Origin: Bacteroidales bacterium
Lineage (GTDB): Bacteria; Bacteroidota; Bacteroidia; Bacteroidales; UBA4181
Assembly (NCBI GenBank): GCA_017523725.1
Contig: JAFWVY010000036.1
Coordinates: 1 to 64,000, forward strand
Reading direction: 5' to 3'
Length of the DNA: 64,000 bases
Below are positions 1 to 32,158 of this stretch, one piece after another; within the stretch, counting starts at the first letter, position 1, and every line of letters starts with the position of its first letter. The translations under genes were made by a program, and so were the position numbers. The notes beneath the pieces were generated by a model. That model worked only from the letters and a program-made list of their open reading frames with translations. It ran no database searches and was not told the DNA's origin.

Positions 1-117
1 AACTTTACAAGGAAGAAGTTCACCGGCTTTAGCAGTAAAGAAACGATGAGAACCAACATCAAACCCATTACGGGAGGGATGATTTCGAACATCAGGAAAA
101 TCAAAAAGGTTTGCCAT
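1..117 (-). CDS. Major capsid protein VP1 of a microvirus, N-terminal fragment
   Basis: The start codon is at 115-117 on the minus strand and the frame stays open for 39 codons to the window edge. The peptide begins MANLFDFPDVRNHPSRNGFD and continues through FTAKAGELLPCKV. The RNGFD...FTAKAGELLP pattern is typical of the F-type capsid protein N-terminus in gokushoviruses and alpaviruses, where a short basic arm precedes a conserved T-K-G-L-P stretch. VP1 would form the T=1 capsid shell. About 160 bases with no gene separate it from the next upstream small gene. Only about 7% of a normal VP1 (roughly 550-600 aa) is visible. Confidence 0.8.
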   Translation of the reverse strand, partial: MANLFDFPDVRNHPSRNGFDVGSHRFFTAKAGELLPCKV

Positions 118-280
118 AATACATAATTTTTATAAGGTTGTTAATTGAAAGGGCACATCTAAGCGTCTGCAGGCAGACAGAAAGGTAAAAACACCGTGTC
201 TCACGACAGAGCGTTTTAAAATGTTAAGAATGTTATGAACAGAAAAACACATACACGTAATACAGATAATCACCAAAAAC

Positions 281-529
281 CTAATCTATCTTAGATATGT
301 GAAGAATCGTATGATAAGGGGAAACCCAACGAGAAAGAATATTGAAATTCTTAGCAGTGAAACCAGCCTTAGCAGCTGACTGAGAAGATTCAAAGAAATA
401 AACACAAAGGGTCTGAGCAATACGCTCAATAAGCACAAAACGCGGAAGGTCAGAATCATTGATGATACGGAGAACCATATCTTCTACCTGGACACGATAA
501 TAATCACCGGAGTTAGTTAAAGGTTTCAT
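281..529 (-). CDS. Small microvirus protein, unknown function (82 aa)
   Basis: An 82-residue AT-rich gene overlapping the 3' end of the upstream 72-aa gene by 4 bases (ATGA), so the two are probably translationally coupled. No domain is recognised. The sequence has a mixed charge pattern with an aromatic central helix (LCVYFF) and no signal peptide or membrane segment. Its place between the Rep end and VP1 matches the site where microviruses encode small DNA-packaging or scaffold proteins (VP5/VP3 or alpavirus-specific ORFs). I cannot say which it is. Confidence 0.6.
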   Translation of the reverse strand: MKPLTNSGDYYRVQVEDMVLRIINDSDLPRFVLIERIAQTLCVYFFESSQSAAKAGFTAKNFNILSRWVSPYHTILHISKID

Positions 530-744
530 AAATCAAACAGTGAAAGTTGAACAGCAGACTGATTAAAATTTTGTTGATTAAAAGCAGAATCTTTAAGAGG
601 AACAAGCGGAAGCTTAGACCAAAGACGGAGACCACAGACATTACCATCAGAGTTAAAAACATGATCTACATCATAATCACCAGTACGGCGGAGAGACCAG
701 AAACGTTCCTTTGTAATACGTTTAGAAGCAAGAAAATACTTCAT
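526..744 (-). CDS. Small microvirus protein with a C-terminal sliding-clamp-type motif (72 aa)
   Basis: A 72-residue gene, 2 bases downstream of the 83-aa gene and overlapping the next gene by ATGA. The N-terminal half is basic (KRITKERFWSLRRTGDYD). The last ten residues read SAVQLSLFDL. QLSLF is the textbook QL(S/D)LF pentapeptide that bacterial proteins use to bind the DNA polymerase III beta clamp, and here it sits in a flexible-looking, Gln/Asn-rich tail (FNQQNFNQSA) where such motifs usually lie. The gene assignment is supported by packing and coupling; clamp binding is an inference from the motif alone. Confidence 0.62.
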   Translation of the reverse strand: MKYFLASKRITKERFWSLRRTGDYDVDHVFNSDGNVCGLRLWSKLPLVPLKDSAFNQQNFNQSAVQLSLFDL

Positions 745-746
745 GA

Positions 747-998
747 CTAAAAAGGTAAATAGTCTAAACCATCCAACAAATTAGAAGAAGCAAGGCGTTG
801 AACACGCTGAATAAAAAATACAGTATAATCGGAAAGATCATTAGCACAACTCTTCATACGAAGATCGTAAAAAACAAGAGAGCCATCATACCATAGAGAA
901 TAACCGCGAGAACAATCAAACTTGACCTCAATTTTAGAGGTACTAAACACCGTACAAAGTACGGTAGTAAGGATTTCAGAATAATTTTTCTTTTTCAT
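747..998 (-). CDS. Small microvirus protein, unknown function (83 aa)
   Basis: An 83-residue gene that starts 6 bases after the stop of the Rep-like fragment. It begins MKKKNYSEIL and is rich in aromatic residues and serine, with a short hydrophobic stretch (LVFYDL) but no clear membrane segment. No family is recognised. Position after Rep and before VP1, and the tight spacing on both sides, support it as a real phage gene. Confidence 0.58.
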   Translation of the reverse strand: MKKKNYSEILTTVLCTVFSTSKIEVKFDCSRGYSLWYDGSLVFYDLRMKSCANDLSDYTVFFIQRVQRLASSNLLDGLDYLPF

Positions 999-1004
999 AA
1001 CACA

Positions 1005-1151
1005 CTATTTAAAAAAATTGAACATAATTTCGTTTTGGACTTTATGTTTGATACGCTTATCGCGCATATCTGTAATTGACTTTTTCCAATCCATAAAAAA
1101 ACGATCATTAACACACTGCAAATTAACAAAATCATTGTCATATAATTTATA
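1005..1151 (-). pseudogene. 3' end of a probable microvirus replication gene (Rep/VP4), cut at the dif junction
   Basis: A 48-codon open frame runs out of the dif-like site and stops at 1005-1007. It reads YDNDFVNLQCVNDRFF followed by a very basic stretch (DWKKS, RDKRIKHK) and ends NFFK. No start codon lies at its upstream end: the frame meets a TAA at 1152-1154, inside the XerD arm. In a circular phage the upstream coding part would be supplied by the other end of the prophage, outside this window. The Rep identity is inferred from gene order, the basic C-terminus and the phage-like codon use, not from a catalytic motif. Confidence 0.42.
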
Positions 1152-1162
1152 TTATGTTAAAT
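1135..1162. other. dif: dif-like XerC/XerD recombination site (prophage junction)
   Basis: A 28-bp site with the 11-6-11 layout of dif: left arm TTGTCATATAA (1135-1145), centre TTTATA (1146-1151) and right arm TTATGTTAAAT (1152-1162). The right arm is identical to the XerD-binding arm of E. coli dif as I remember it. The left arm shares the terminal ATAA but is otherwise divergent, as expected if that half came from the phage. It marks the host-phage boundary and may be the chromosome's own dif site, which would place this end of the window near the replication terminus. Confidence 0.72.
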
Positions 1163-1666: not shown

Positions 1667-2887
1667 ATGGATATATCCAATTATCAATTGTCTATCAATC
1701 AGTTCGATTATAATCTTCCGGAAGAACGGATAGCCCGTTACCCGCTTCCCTGCCGCGATATGTCCAAATTGCTGGTCTATGAAAACGGGCAGATATCGGA
1801 GCGTGTCTTCCGCGAACTGCCGGAGCTGCTCCCCCCGTCCGACCTGATGGTATTCAACAATACGAAGGTGGTGCGGGCCCGGTTGCGTTTCGACAAGGAA
1901 ACCGGCGCGCACATCGAGATTTTCTGCCTGGAACCTGTCGAACCCGCCGAGTACGAAACGGCCTTTGCGCAACGGGGAACCGCCGTATGGAAATGTCTGG
2001 TCGGCAACCGGAAGAAATGGAAAGGCGGACAGTTGGTAAAGAACCTTAAAGATGCTGATTTACAGGCCGAAATAGTATCTGATTATACCTCCCACCAATA
2101 CGTGCGTTTTACATGGGACCCTCGTTTTACCTGGGGCGAAGTGATGGATCTGGCCGGGGTTACCCCTATCCCGCCCTACCTGAACCGCGAGACGGAACAG
2201 GTGGACGATGTGCGCTACCAGACGGTCTATTCCAGATATAAGGGGTCGGTGGCCGCCCCGACGGCCGGCCTGCATTTCACGCCTGAAGTGCTGGAAAACC
2301 TGCGCAGCCGGGGTATCCGGACTGCCGAAGTGACGCTGCATGTCGGGGCCGGTACGTTCAAGCCGGTGACGGCGGAATTCGTGAAAGACCACGAAATGCA
2401 TGAGGAATTCTTTACGGTGGACCGCGAGACTGTCCGTCTGATGCAGGTACAGCCGGGCCGCATCACGGCCGTCGGCACTACTTCGGTACGCACCATCGAA
2501 AGCCTGTACTGGATGGGGGTCAAACTGCTGCGTGAACCGATGCACGGCGGCGATGCACCGCACCTGAGCCTGAAGCAGTTCGAGGCCTACGCCCTGCCCC
2601 AGGACACCCCGCGCCACGAAGCCATGCAGGCGCTGCTGGATGCAATGGACACCTGTGGATGCGACCTGCTGACAGCCCATACCGGCATCATGATCATGCC
2701 GGGATATCATTTCCGGATGACCGACGCGATGGTCACCAATTTCCATCAGCCCAAAAGCACGCTGCTGCTGCTGGTTTCGGCCTTTATCGGCGACGACTGG
2801 AAGCAAGTGTACGACTATGCCCTGGCGCACGGCTTCCGTTTCCTGAGCTACGGCGACAGTTCGCTGCTGGTCCGCAGCACCCTCTGA
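1667..2887 (+). CDS. queA: S-adenosylmethionine:tRNA ribosyltransferase-isomerase
   Basis: 406 aa. QueA transfers and isomerises the ribosyl part of SAM onto 7-aminomethyl-7-deazaguanine at tRNA position 34 to give epoxyqueuosine in the cytoplasm. Family signatures are visible: FDYNLPEERIARYPL at the start, SDLMVFNNTKVVRARL, SVAAPTAGLHFTPE, VTLHVGAGTFKPV, AVGTTSVRTIES and the C-terminal MVTNFHQPKSTLLLLVSAF. It is longer than the usual 340-350 aa because of insertions near residues 85-145 and 275-320, which I associate with the Bacteroidota form. The ATG at 1667 was preferred over an upstream TTG because it begins MDISNYQ and is 18 nt after the -7 box. recQ starts 3 nt after its stop. Confidence 0.93.
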   Translation: MDISNYQLSINQFDYNLPEERIARYPLPCRDMSKLLVYENGQISERVFRELPELLPPSDLMVFNNTKVVRARLRFDKETGAHIEIFCLEPVEPAEYETAFAQRGTAVWKCLVGNRKKWKGGQLVKNLKDADLQAEIVSDYTSHQYVRFTWDPRFTWGEVMDLAGVTPIPPYLNRETEQVDDVRYQTVYSRYKGSVAAPTAGLHFTPEVLENLRSRGIRTAEVTLHVGAGTFKPVTAEFVKDHEMHEEFFTVDRETVRLMQVQPGRITAVGTTSVRTIESLYWMGVKLLREPMHGGDAPHLSLKQFEAYALPQDTPRHEAMQALLDAMDTCGCDLLTAHTGIMIMPGYHFRMTDAMVTNFHQPKSTLLLLVSAFIGDDWKQVYDYALAHGFRFLSYGDSSLLVRSTL

Positions 2888-2890
2888 ACC

Positions 2891-4822
2891 ATGTCAGTCT
2901 ATACCGACATACTTAAGAAATACTGGGGATACGATGCCTTCCGGGGAATACAGGAGGACATCATCGCATCGGTCATGTCCGGCCGCGACACGCTGGCGCT
3001 GATGCCGACCGGCGGTGGCAAGTCGGTTGCTTTCCAGGTGCCGGCCATGGCTTCAGAGGGCATCTGCATCGTGATTACGCCGCTGATTGCACTGATGAAA
3101 GACCAGGTGGAACATTTGATGCGCCGGGGTATCCGTGCGGCGGCGGTTTATTCGGGCATGACGCACGAACAGATCGACACGGCCCTCTCCAATTGCATCT
3201 ACGACGAGAACTACAAATTCCTGTATTGCTCGCCCGAACGGCTCGAAACCGAGATGTTCCGGACGCGCGTTGTCAAGATGAAGGTCTGTCTCATCGCGGT
3301 GGACGAGGCACACTGTATCTCGCAGTGGGGCTACGACTTCCGCCCTTCCTACCTGAAAATTTCGACGCTGCGTGAACTGCTGCCGGATGTGCCCGTGCTG
3401 GCGCTGACGGCGACTGCGACACCGGAGGTCGTCGAAGACATCCAGAAACAACTCGCATTCAAGGCCCCGAATGCGCTTTCGATGAGCTTCGAAAGGCGCA
3501 ACCTCGCCTATCTCGTACGCTATGTGGAGAACAAGCAGGACTACCTTCTCCGTGCCCTGCAGAGCGATCCGGGCTGCGGTATCATCTATGTCCGGAGCCG
3601 CAAGAAGACAGTGGACATTGCGCGGATGCTGCAGCAGAATGGTCTGTCGGCCGATGCCTACCATGCCGGACTGGGCAGCGGACTCCGGGCGGCACGGCAG
3701 GAGGCGTGGACTCGTGGAGAAACGCGTATCATGGTGGCAACCAATGCGTTCGGAATGGGCATCGACAAGGCGGACGTGCGTTTTGTCATCCATGTCGATC
3801 TGCCGGAATCGCTGGAAGCCTATTTCCAGGAAGCCGGCCGCGGCGGCCGCGACGGCCGGCCGGCCTATGCCGTGCTGCTTTACAGCCCGGCCGACCGCAG
3901 CCGTCTGGAATCGCATCTCAAGAACAGTTTCCCGCCCATGGAAACCATCCGGAGCGTTTACGAAGACCTGTGCTATTTCCTCGAAATTCCCTATAACACC
4001 GGCAGCGGCATGAGTTTCGCCTTCTCGCTCGAGACATTTGTCCATCGTTTCAAGTACGAACTGATGACCGCCTATTACGCCATCCGGCTGCTTGAGAGCG
4101 AAGGATATCTGCGGTATGAGGAGGAACCCGACGAATCATCGCGCGTCTGTTTCAAGGTGGAACGCGACGAACTCTACAACTTCCGGCTGGCGAACGAACA
4201 GCTCGACAACTGCATCACGCTGATGCTGCGCTCCTACACCGGCATCTTCACGGACTACGTACCTGTCGACGAGAAGATGCTGGCATTCAGGCTTCAGGTA
4301 ACACCGCAGGAGGTATATGAATATCTCAAACGCCTGCGTCAGGCGCACATTATCGACTACATCCCGCGCCGTGAGGAACCGGTGCTCACGTTCCTGACAG
4401 ACCGTGTCGAAAAACGTTATGTGACGCTGAGCAAGGCAGTGTACGACGACCGGAAGAAAGTGCAGAGCGACAAAGCGCATGCCGTGCTGCACTATGCCGA
4501 GGAACGCCATCTCTGCCGGAGCCGGATGCTGCTGCATTATTTCGGACAACGAGACCTGCGCGACTGCGGCCGGTGCGACACCTGTCTCCGCCGCAAGGCG
4601 GTCCCGATGAACGACCAGACTTACCGGCAGATGGTCAGCCAGGCTCTCGCCTGCCTGGACGGGCATCCCGACGGCATGCCGCACGCCGACCTGGTCGCCG
4701 CCCTCACTCCTGCCGGTGCGGAAAGCAGCGAAACGGCCGTTCCGGCGCGGCGCCGGATGCTGGACGAAGAAATTGTCGGCATGGACGACCGATTTAGAAT
4801 CATTCGTTTGGCTGTTTCATAA
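2891..4822 (+). CDS. recQ: ATP-dependent DNA helicase RecQ
   Basis: 643 aa. A superfamily 2, 3'-5' DNA helicase of recombination and fork repair. Visible parts: Walker A TGGGKS (residues 40-45), DEAH box (138-141), SQWGYDFRPSY aromatic-rich loop just after it, LALTATATPEV motif III, and a helicase C half with GIIYVRSRK, YHAGL, NAFGMGIDK and QEAGRGGRDG. Near residues 540-566 the zinc-binding module shows CRSRMLLHYFG, CGRC and CDTC. The C-terminus (to 643) is short and I do not see an obvious HRDC domain. It probably shares a transcript with queA. Its 3' end contains the promoter of the his operon. Confidence 0.95.
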   Translation: MSVYTDILKKYWGYDAFRGIQEDIIASVMSGRDTLALMPTGGGKSVAFQVPAMASEGICIVITPLIALMKDQVEHLMRRGIRAAAVYSGMTHEQIDTALSNCIYDENYKFLYCSPERLETEMFRTRVVKMKVCLIAVDEAHCISQWGYDFRPSYLKISTLRELLPDVPVLALTATATPEVVEDIQKQLAFKAPNALSMSFERRNLAYLVRYVENKQDYLLRALQSDPGCGIIYVRSRKKTVDIARMLQQNGLSADAYHAGLGSGLRAARQEAWTRGETRIMVATNAFGMGIDKADVRFVIHVDLPESLEAYFQEAGRGGRDGRPAYAVLLYSPADRSRLESHLKNSFPPMETIRSVYEDLCYFLEIPYNTGSGMSFAFSLETFVHRFKYELMTAYYAIRLLESEGYLRYEEEPDESSRVCFKVERDELYNFRLANEQLDNCITLMLRSYTGIFTDYVPVDEKMLAFRLQVTPQEVYEYLKRLRQAHIIDYIPRREEPVLTFLTDRVEKRYVTLSKAVYDDRKKVQSDKAHAVLHYAEERHLCRSRMLLHYFGQRDLRDCGRCDTCLRRKAVPMNDQTYRQMVSQALACLDGHPDGMPHADLVAALTPAGAESSETAVPARRRMLDEEIVGMDDRFRIIRLAVS

Positions 4823-4925: not shown

Positions 4926-4989
4926 TATGCAAATAAACGACAAAGGATAAGGAAGGTTTGCATATCTTTGTGCAAGCCTTTTGTTTTTT
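4926..4989 (+). terminator. his attenuator: antiterminator and terminator hairpins
   Basis: Terminator: AAGGTTTGCA (4953-4962) pairs with TGCAAGCCTT (4971-4980), 10 bp with one G-U, 8-nt loop, followed by TTGTTTTTT (4981-4989). Competing antiterminator: TATGCAAA (4926-4933) pairs perfectly with TTTGCATA (4957-4964), and can be extended by three pairs including two G-U; it uses the left arm and loop of the terminator. Stalling on the His codons would leave the antiterminator free to form and let transcription reach hisG. Confidence 0.8.
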
Positions 4990-5008
4990 AACCAAATATC
5001 TTAGCATT

Positions 5009-5860
5009 ATGCTCAGAATTGCCATACAATCGAAAGGACGTCTGTACGACGAAACCATGTCGCTGCTGACGGAAACCGGTTTGAAACTGCCTGTGGAAAA
5101 AAGAGGTCTGCTGGTACAGGCCAGGAATTTCCCCGTGGAGGTGCTTTTCCTCCGCGATGACGACATCCCGGCATCGGTGGCCAGCGGCATCGCCGACATC
5201 GGCATCGTGGGAGAAAACGAATACGTGGAGCGCGGCAGCCAGGCCGATCTGATCAAGCGTCTGGGATTCAGCCGTTGCCGGTTGTCCCTTGCTATTCCCA
5301 AAGATCTGGAATATACCGGTCTCCAGTGGTTCGACGGCAAGAAGATCGCCACCTCCTACCCTGCCATTCTTCAGAATTTTCTGAAAGAAAATGGCATCCG
5401 TGCCGACATCCACATCATCACGGGCTCGGTGGAAATCGCACCGGGCATCGGGCTGGCCGATGCCATCTTCGACATCGTCAGTTCCGGCAGTACACTGGTC
5501 AGCAACCGGCTGAAAGAAGTCGAGACGGTGATGCAGTCCGAAGCGCTCCTCATTGGTACGCCAGGACTTCCAGCAGACAAGCAGGAAATTCTTAAAGAAC
5601 TGATCTTCAGAATGGAAGCTGTGCAGGCCGCCGAAGGCAAGAAATATATTCTGCTCAATGCGCCGAACAGCCGCATTCCGGAAATCTGCCGGCTGCTGCC
5701 CGGCATGAAGAGCCCGACCGTGATGCCGCTGGCCGAAAGCGACTGGAGTTCCGTCCACTCGGTCATCGAAGAGAAGAAATTCTGGGAGATTATCGGCAAG
5801 CTGAAGAATCTCGGCGCCGAAGGCATCCTGGTGGTTCCGATTGAGAAAATGATTCTATGA
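5009..5860 (+). CDS. hisG: ATP phosphoribosyltransferase, long form
   Basis: 283 aa. First step of histidine synthesis: condensation of ATP with PRPP. The start MLRIAIQSKGRLYDE is the normal HisG N-terminus, so an upstream ATG at 4958 (inside the attenuator) is not used. Visible motifs: GIADIGIVGENEY and the PRPP-binding stretch DAIFDIVSSGSTLVSN. The extra C-terminal part, about residues 205-283, including MPLAESDWSSVHSVIEE, is the ACT-like regulatory domain of the long, hexameric form, normally inhibited by histidine, so no HisZ is needed. hisD overlaps its stop by 4 bases (ATGA). Confidence 0.96.
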   Translation: MLRIAIQSKGRLYDETMSLLTETGLKLPVEKRGLLVQARNFPVEVLFLRDDDIPASVASGIADIGIVGENEYVERGSQADLIKRLGFSRCRLSLAIPKDLEYTGLQWFDGKKIATSYPAILQNFLKENGIRADIHIITGSVEIAPGIGLADAIFDIVSSGSTLVSNRLKEVETVMQSEALLIGTPGLPADKQEILKELIFRMEAVQAAEGKKYILLNAPNSRIPEICRLLPGMKSPTVMPLAESDWSSVHSVIEEKKFWEIIGKLKNLGAEGILVVPIEKMIL

Positions 5861-31979: not shown

Positions 31980-32063
31980 TACCCAGGACGAGACTTGAAC
32001 TCACACGGGGTTACCCCCACCACCCCCTCAAAGTGGCGTGTCTACCAATTCCACCACCTGGGC
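31980..32063 (-). tRNA. tRNA-Leu (anticodon GAG)
   Basis: The minus strand reads GCCCAGGTGGTGGAATTGG at the 5' end, with a 7-bp acceptor stem closed by CCTGGGT and discriminator A, a long variable arm and the TTCAAGTC T-loop. The anticodon stem-loop is CCACT-TTGAGGG-GGTGG, giving anticodon GAG. Class II length of 84 nt (no CCA encoded). Confidence 0.93.
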
Positions 32064-32074
32064 TTGCTCTTTTG

Positions 32075-32158
32075 TACCCGGAACAGGACTTGAACCTGCA
32101 CGTTCTTGCGAACACTAGTCCCTGAAACTAGCGCGTCTACCACTTCCGCCACCCGGGC
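32075..32158 (-). tRNA. tRNA-Leu (anticodon CAG)
   Basis: The minus strand reads GCCCGGGTGGCGGAAGTGG, with acceptor stem closed by CCGGGT, a long variable arm and TTCAAGTC T-loop. The anticodon arm is CTAGT-TTCAGGG-ACTAG, giving anticodon CAG. Class II, 84 nt, 11 nt upstream of the tRNA-Leu(GAG) gene and probably co-transcribed with it. Confidence 0.93.

Follow-up and report, generated by a model that had tools for sequence, protein, structure and literature searches.

The left edge of the 64,000-nt stretch analysed here (the window; contig JAFWVY010000036.1 of the Bacteroidales assembly GCA_017523725.1, positions 1 to 64,000) very probably carries one end of a temperate, Alpavirinae-type microvirus of ~6.1 kb that resides in the chromosomal dif of its host, having entered it in the style of VGJφ by means of host XerC and XerD and without a recognisable integrase. 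Window base 1 is also base 1 of its contig (C11), i.e. a contig edge; the right end of the prophage is in the window and the left end is on another contig of the same genome, C33 (= L008), which came to light when two Dulem virus 232 proteins, Rep and capsid, served as queries against the genome. An earlier note on this DNA had proposed a microvirus prophage at a dif-like site and expected more phage genes, and another dif-like junction, to the left. Both are present on C33, the genes being those for the capsid C-terminus, a scaffold-like protein, the pilot protein and Rep. Our analysis goes beyond that note in placing the prophage in the chromosome's own dif and in assigning the phage a 29-bp site of VGJφ type, predicted to lie inside rep. 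The lifestyle, that of an integrase-less microvirus in dif, is a known one, here in a new, poorly sampled lineage.

The 11-6-11 dif-like site described in the note lies exactly at window 1135–1162 (+), ttgtcatataa TTTATA ttatgttaaat, and is taken as the right attachment site, attR, composed of a XerC arm (1135–1145), a 6-bp spacer (1146–1151) and a XerD arm (1152–1162) in the canonical arrangement of dif in this order. It is the only match without mismatch to the core ATAA-N6-TTATGTTAAAT in the 2.35-Mb assembly, and scored with a matrix made from 32 of the order's dif sites it reaches 43.2 bits, the runner-up among independent window sites having 14.2; both results are far above what chance would give. 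Of 198 genomes examined in the order, 103 have the core, seldom in multiple copies, and the reversed control gave few hits; relatives yield the full-site consensus TTGTCYTATAA-TTWATA-TTATGTTAAAT. Judging by this dif type, which named Bacteroidales loci also have, and by the relatives, the host is probably a member of the Bacteroidales.

A phage-free relative of the same family (G011) has gyrA-TPR-dif-rnpB-queA-recQ-hisG-hisD contiguous on one contig, and so shows dif unoccupied between the neighbours it has here. That neighbourhood, intact in the relative, is split by the phage between C33 and C11 here, and the prophage therefore occupies the chromosome's own dif, whose predicted sequence before integration is TTGTTATATAA-TTTATA-TTATGTTAAAT. 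On the window side the RNase P RNA gene rnpB (1268–1613, −; RF00010, 247 bits), which adjoins dif in G011 too, is followed by queA (1646–2887, +; Pfam; in the same order beside dif in G011), recQ (2891–4822) and hisG (4958–5860). On C33, past Rep and the second dif-like site, come an APH/choline-kinase-like gene, a TPR protein gene and gyrA, the last of which is near dif in several other members of the order too. The G+C content is 35–41% in the phage versus about 54–58% in the adjoining host DNA, in favour of the prophage reading. Two observations fit that reading less well: the GC-skew change across the dif site is weak and, relative to the gyrA-queA direction, dif points opposite to four of the five relatives checked (G011, G080, G017 and G104), agreeing with G036; a small local inversion at dif, taking in the APH-like gene as well, is possible. 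That gene (L008 3647–4528, −) sits between the TPR gene and dif, and its one homologue (59%) in 148 genomes of the order is located elsewhere. Farther into the window are two tandem tRNA genes with near-equal scores (31980–32158, −).

The window opens with the first 39 codons of the major capsid protein (VP1) gene (1–117, −), cut by the contig edge and encoding MANLFDFPDVRNHPSRNGFDVGSHRFFTAKAGELLP..., which is 62% identical over 37 aa to residues 1–37 of the Dulem virus 232 MCP (E 2e-7), bearing out the microvirus-type capsid N-terminus that the note had seen. At the DNA level the window from base 3 or 10 to base 86 is 76–78% identical to the capsid genes of Tortoise microvirus 40 and Dulem virus 232. 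The VP1 C-terminus (L008 3–181) matches microvirus capsid proteins in alignment with relatives; 39 + 59 capsid residues are present, and both VP1 ends are in frame. Both termini are those of the phage F/VP1-type major capsid protein of the Microviridae, the middle lying outside the assembly, and PF02305 gave no match in this genome, as expected with capsid ends only, while the controls were silent too. Relatives' capsid genes measure about 1.67–1.86 kb, from which we estimate that ~1.4 kb of VP1 is absent between C33 and C11 and that the whole element is ~6.1 kb long.

Beyond the capsid C-terminus C33 encodes a scaffold-like ORF of 141 aa (L008 194–619), a DNA pilot protein of 359 aa (677–1756; phrog_8689, 2.2e-6) and Rep (1984–3594; phrog_942, 2.5e-41; PF23343, 5.3e-15), the latter two being the HUH rolling-circle Rep and DNA pilot protein characteristic of the Microviridae. 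The invariant HUH and tyrosine residues of Rep are intact (H172, H174, Y223 and Y227), and all phage ORFs seen are open. The small phage genes of the note are likewise present between 281 and 998 (−), as three entries in the ORF list: one of 82 aa (281–529, −), whose start shares bases with the preceding ORF's stop and whose best match in phages has an E of only 0.5; one of 72 aa (526–744, −); and one of 83 aa (747–998, −), which begins just past the displaced rep tail described below and has no match in phages by tblastn. The first two have no significant PHROG or Pfam family match, and scans of the window phage ORFs alone with these collections gave no informative match. A 48-aa ORF at 995–1141 was rejected as most likely spurious; an overlapping frame ending at 1005 is the displaced C-terminal tail of Rep.

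No integrase is found among the phage ORFs seen in the window and on C33, either in the ORF list or in PHROG and Pfam scans. The genome encodes XerD (C30; 335.8 bits, over the cut-off) and a second Xer-like protein (C46; 248.8 bits). Like other Xer-dependent integrative elements (IMEX), the element is located in the host chromosomal dif and has no recombinase of its own, with host XerC and XerD present.

The left attachment site, on C33 at 3535–3563 (reverse complement), is an 11-7-11 site of 29 bp, ttgttatataa TTTAGAG ttatgttcagt, scoring 21.7 bits versus 7.0 for the next best in 19.7 kb. When both sites are compared in the gyrA-to-queA direction, they differ on the XerD side, in the spacer (7-bp TTTAGAG versus 6-bp TTTATA) and in the XerD arm. 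Since the spacer and XerD arm of the right site are as in the host's relatives, the 7-bp spacer and altered XerD arm are assigned to the phage, whose predicted attP is TTGTCATATAA-TTTAGAG-TTATGTTCAGT; in attR the XerC arm (1135–1145) would then derive from the phage, and the spacer (1146–1151) and XerD arm (1152–1162) from the host.

This attP is predicted to fall inside the 3′ end of rep. In the circular phage the Rep frame of L008 1984–3552 continues, through attP, into the displaced rep 3′ end at window 1145–1005 (1005–1145, −), giving 569 aa that end in ...DKRIKHKVQNEIMFNFFK before the stop, and relatives' Reps finish in the same motif, e.g. ...NDRIKHKRLNDANKIFIDE. As tblastn with the rep tail found no matches, a C-terminal profile was used in its place: with a model of 11 Rep C-termini the displaced tail scores 16.9 bits, a value reached by none of 20000 shuffles, whereas the alternative frame produced by a 6-bp spacer scores −1.6 bits. 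The conserved tail is in frame only via the 7-bp spacer, which supports that spacer length, and the frame and tail score together are independent evidence that both contig ends belong to one circular phage. Unusually, Rep appears on integration to exchange its final ~46 residues, the conserved RIKHK motif among them, for 13 codons that run into chromosomal DNA, and the lysogen's 536-aa Rep ends in ...KLYNKRISKKAHGI and a stop, lacking the motif.

Like VGJφ, the phage has a 29-bp attP with homology to dif restricted to the XerC side of the spacer (TTTAGAG versus TTTATA). VGJφ integrates as double-stranded DNA with XerC catalysis only, as its XerD side has no homology (PMC4246890; PMC5357621), and the sites here likewise predict that the phage DNA integrates while double-stranded, with XerC as the only catalyst. 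Host XerC and XerD would most likely join the double-stranded replicative form to dif, with XerC exchanging strands beside its own arm, where the phage and host spacers agree (TTTA), and the mismatched XerD side, one base longer, would block XerD catalysis. The product on the queA side would be a regenerated canonical dif (window 1135–1162), still usable for chromosome dimer resolution, and that on the gyrA side the degenerate 29-bp site (C33 3535–3563). Excision would restore the rep frame with its conserved tail. Because attP sits in the 3′ end of rep, one may speculate that integration acts as a lysogeny switch in which Rep, on losing its RIKHK tail, is silenced for rolling-circle replication until excision restores it; we rate this idea as rather unlikely.

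Other routes into dif were weighed against the same sites. In a prophage of Ca. Barnesiella excrementavium (L077 4721–11007) both sites have the same XerC arm and an identical 6-bp spacer, and one XerD arm has decayed, as would follow from complete XerD-first, XerC-second recombination of the TLCφ/GGI type; that the present phage integrated so and that its gyrA-side site decayed later is unlikely, given that its two spacers are unequal in length and that 7 bp are needed to carry the rep frame into the conserved tail, so that the phage seems to have had the additional base from the start and not to have gained it by decay. The 7-bp spacer is not universal, as three free microvirus contigs found with this dif type in a pattern search each have a 6-bp spacer. 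In a CTXφ-like route the phage genome would enter single-stranded, by way of a hairpin between two inverted dif-like sites. A potential partner site is window 1017–1045 (−), about 100 nt inward of attR, whose inverted XerD-like arm (ttatgttcaat) forms pairs with that of attP when the DNA is folded; in BMV4-6, too, one end is close to an additional dif-like site (PMC3091885). The XerC arm of the site at 1017–1045 is poor, however (−7.3 bits), the hairpin fold barely beats shuffles (z −1.8), and the 29-bp attP could recombine as it is, unlike attP1/attP2 of CTXφ; this route appears quite improbable, and the XerC-mediated, VGJφ-like exchange is preferred.

The element might also be something other than a temperate prophage. 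Its division over two contig ends with the middle missing could suggest that assembly or binning had fused a free phage to host contigs by mistake. Phage and host DNA meet, however, at two independent points, both of them dif-like sites, and at dif in the phage-free relative the C33 and C11 flanks adjoin each other. The identical runs between the predicted phage and host sites are short, about 11 bp, and would seem too short for easy mis-joining; such an artefact is very hard to credit. That the element is an inactive, defective remnant is somewhat less far-fetched, yet still doubtful: VP1 is incomplete in the assembly and the integrated Rep lacks its conserved tail, but every ORF seen is open, Rep retains its HUH and tyrosine motifs, VP1 is in frame at either end, and excision would give back the rep frame.

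In a maximum-likelihood tree Rep groups, in starred nested branches, with prophages of Phocaeicola plebeius and Prevotella and with the Dulem and Tortoise phages, and the comparison with Alpavirinae suggested in the note accordingly came out in favour of an Alpavirinae-type placement. The Rep branch is long (1.83), GenBank Reps are about 30% identical, and a pattern search of IMG/VR by Rep or pilot protein found no close relatives; such a Rep occurs in one of the 393 genomes of the order searched. The phage thus joins the integrase-less microviruses of Bacteroidales reported in 2011 (PMC3091885) as a new and divergent member, which differs from them in where att lies and in how the genes are ordered. 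Like the BMV proviruses, or Alpavirinae, of Bacteroides and Prevotella (Krupovic & Forterre 2011, PMC3091885), it is ~6 kb long, has capsid, pilot and rolling-circle Rep genes, lacks an integrase and has dif-like flanks in a Bacteroidales genome. Unlike BMVs, where rep is immediately upstream of mcp, it has att at the rep 3′ end, and on the circle Rep and VP1 are held apart by about 0.9 kb with three small ORFs, so it is Alpavirinae-type by Rep only and not a typical BMV.

The Prevotella and P. plebeius loci also differ in having the better dif-like site upstream of rep. In two Prevotella prophages (L019 9347/15664 and L021 9289/15358) both dif-like flanks have the same non-canonical 6-bp spacer (TGCGCA and TGGGAG, respectively), which may mean that sites other than the chromosomal dif were used, whereas here synteny identifies the target as the chromosomal dif, and the phage site is 29 bp long. 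The Barnesiella prophage and a microvirus prophage of Bacteroidales RGIG1667 from goat caecum (L058 5130–11254; one 6-bp and one 7-bp spacer, sites 6.1 kb apart) share with the present phage the order MCP-VP3-VP2-Rep with att just past Rep, although their Reps end before att and belong to another clade. Microviruses were also seen between dif-like sites 4.1 kb apart with the common spacer GATATA on an Endomicrobium contig (L026 6689 and 10813), in tandem with same-score copies 5173 bp apart in a Clostridia MAG (L031 7459–16079), and as two adjacent elements in Intestinirhabdus alba (L047 9839–17526).

Among systems outside this group, the E. coli enterogokushovirus prophages also use dif, with one canonical site and one that varies in spacer and XerD arm, and XerC and XerD were shown to be required (Kirchberger & Ochman 2020, PMC7062461); dif motifs are noted at gene ends in gokushoviruses (PMC7062461). 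They belong to another subfamily and host phylum and have a canonical upstream motif with the usual 6-bp spacer, and the excerpt of that paper used here mentions no 29-bp phage site for them. The inovirus VGJφ of Vibrio cholerae (PMC4246890) has an unrelated virion but likewise a single 29-bp attP, a XerD-side spacer unlike its host's and no integrase; its mechanism was shown in vitro, while here we infer it. In the inovirus XacF1 (PMC5666396) attP also lies within a phage coding region, which integration at dif splits, the gene concerned being a putative regulator (ORF12) rather than, as here, the replication initiator. The present phage thus adds a microvirus case in a true chromosomal dif, backed by an empty-site comparison. 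It also connects microviruses with Xer hijacking of the VGJφ kind and points to a simple way in which integration and the condition of Rep may be coupled.
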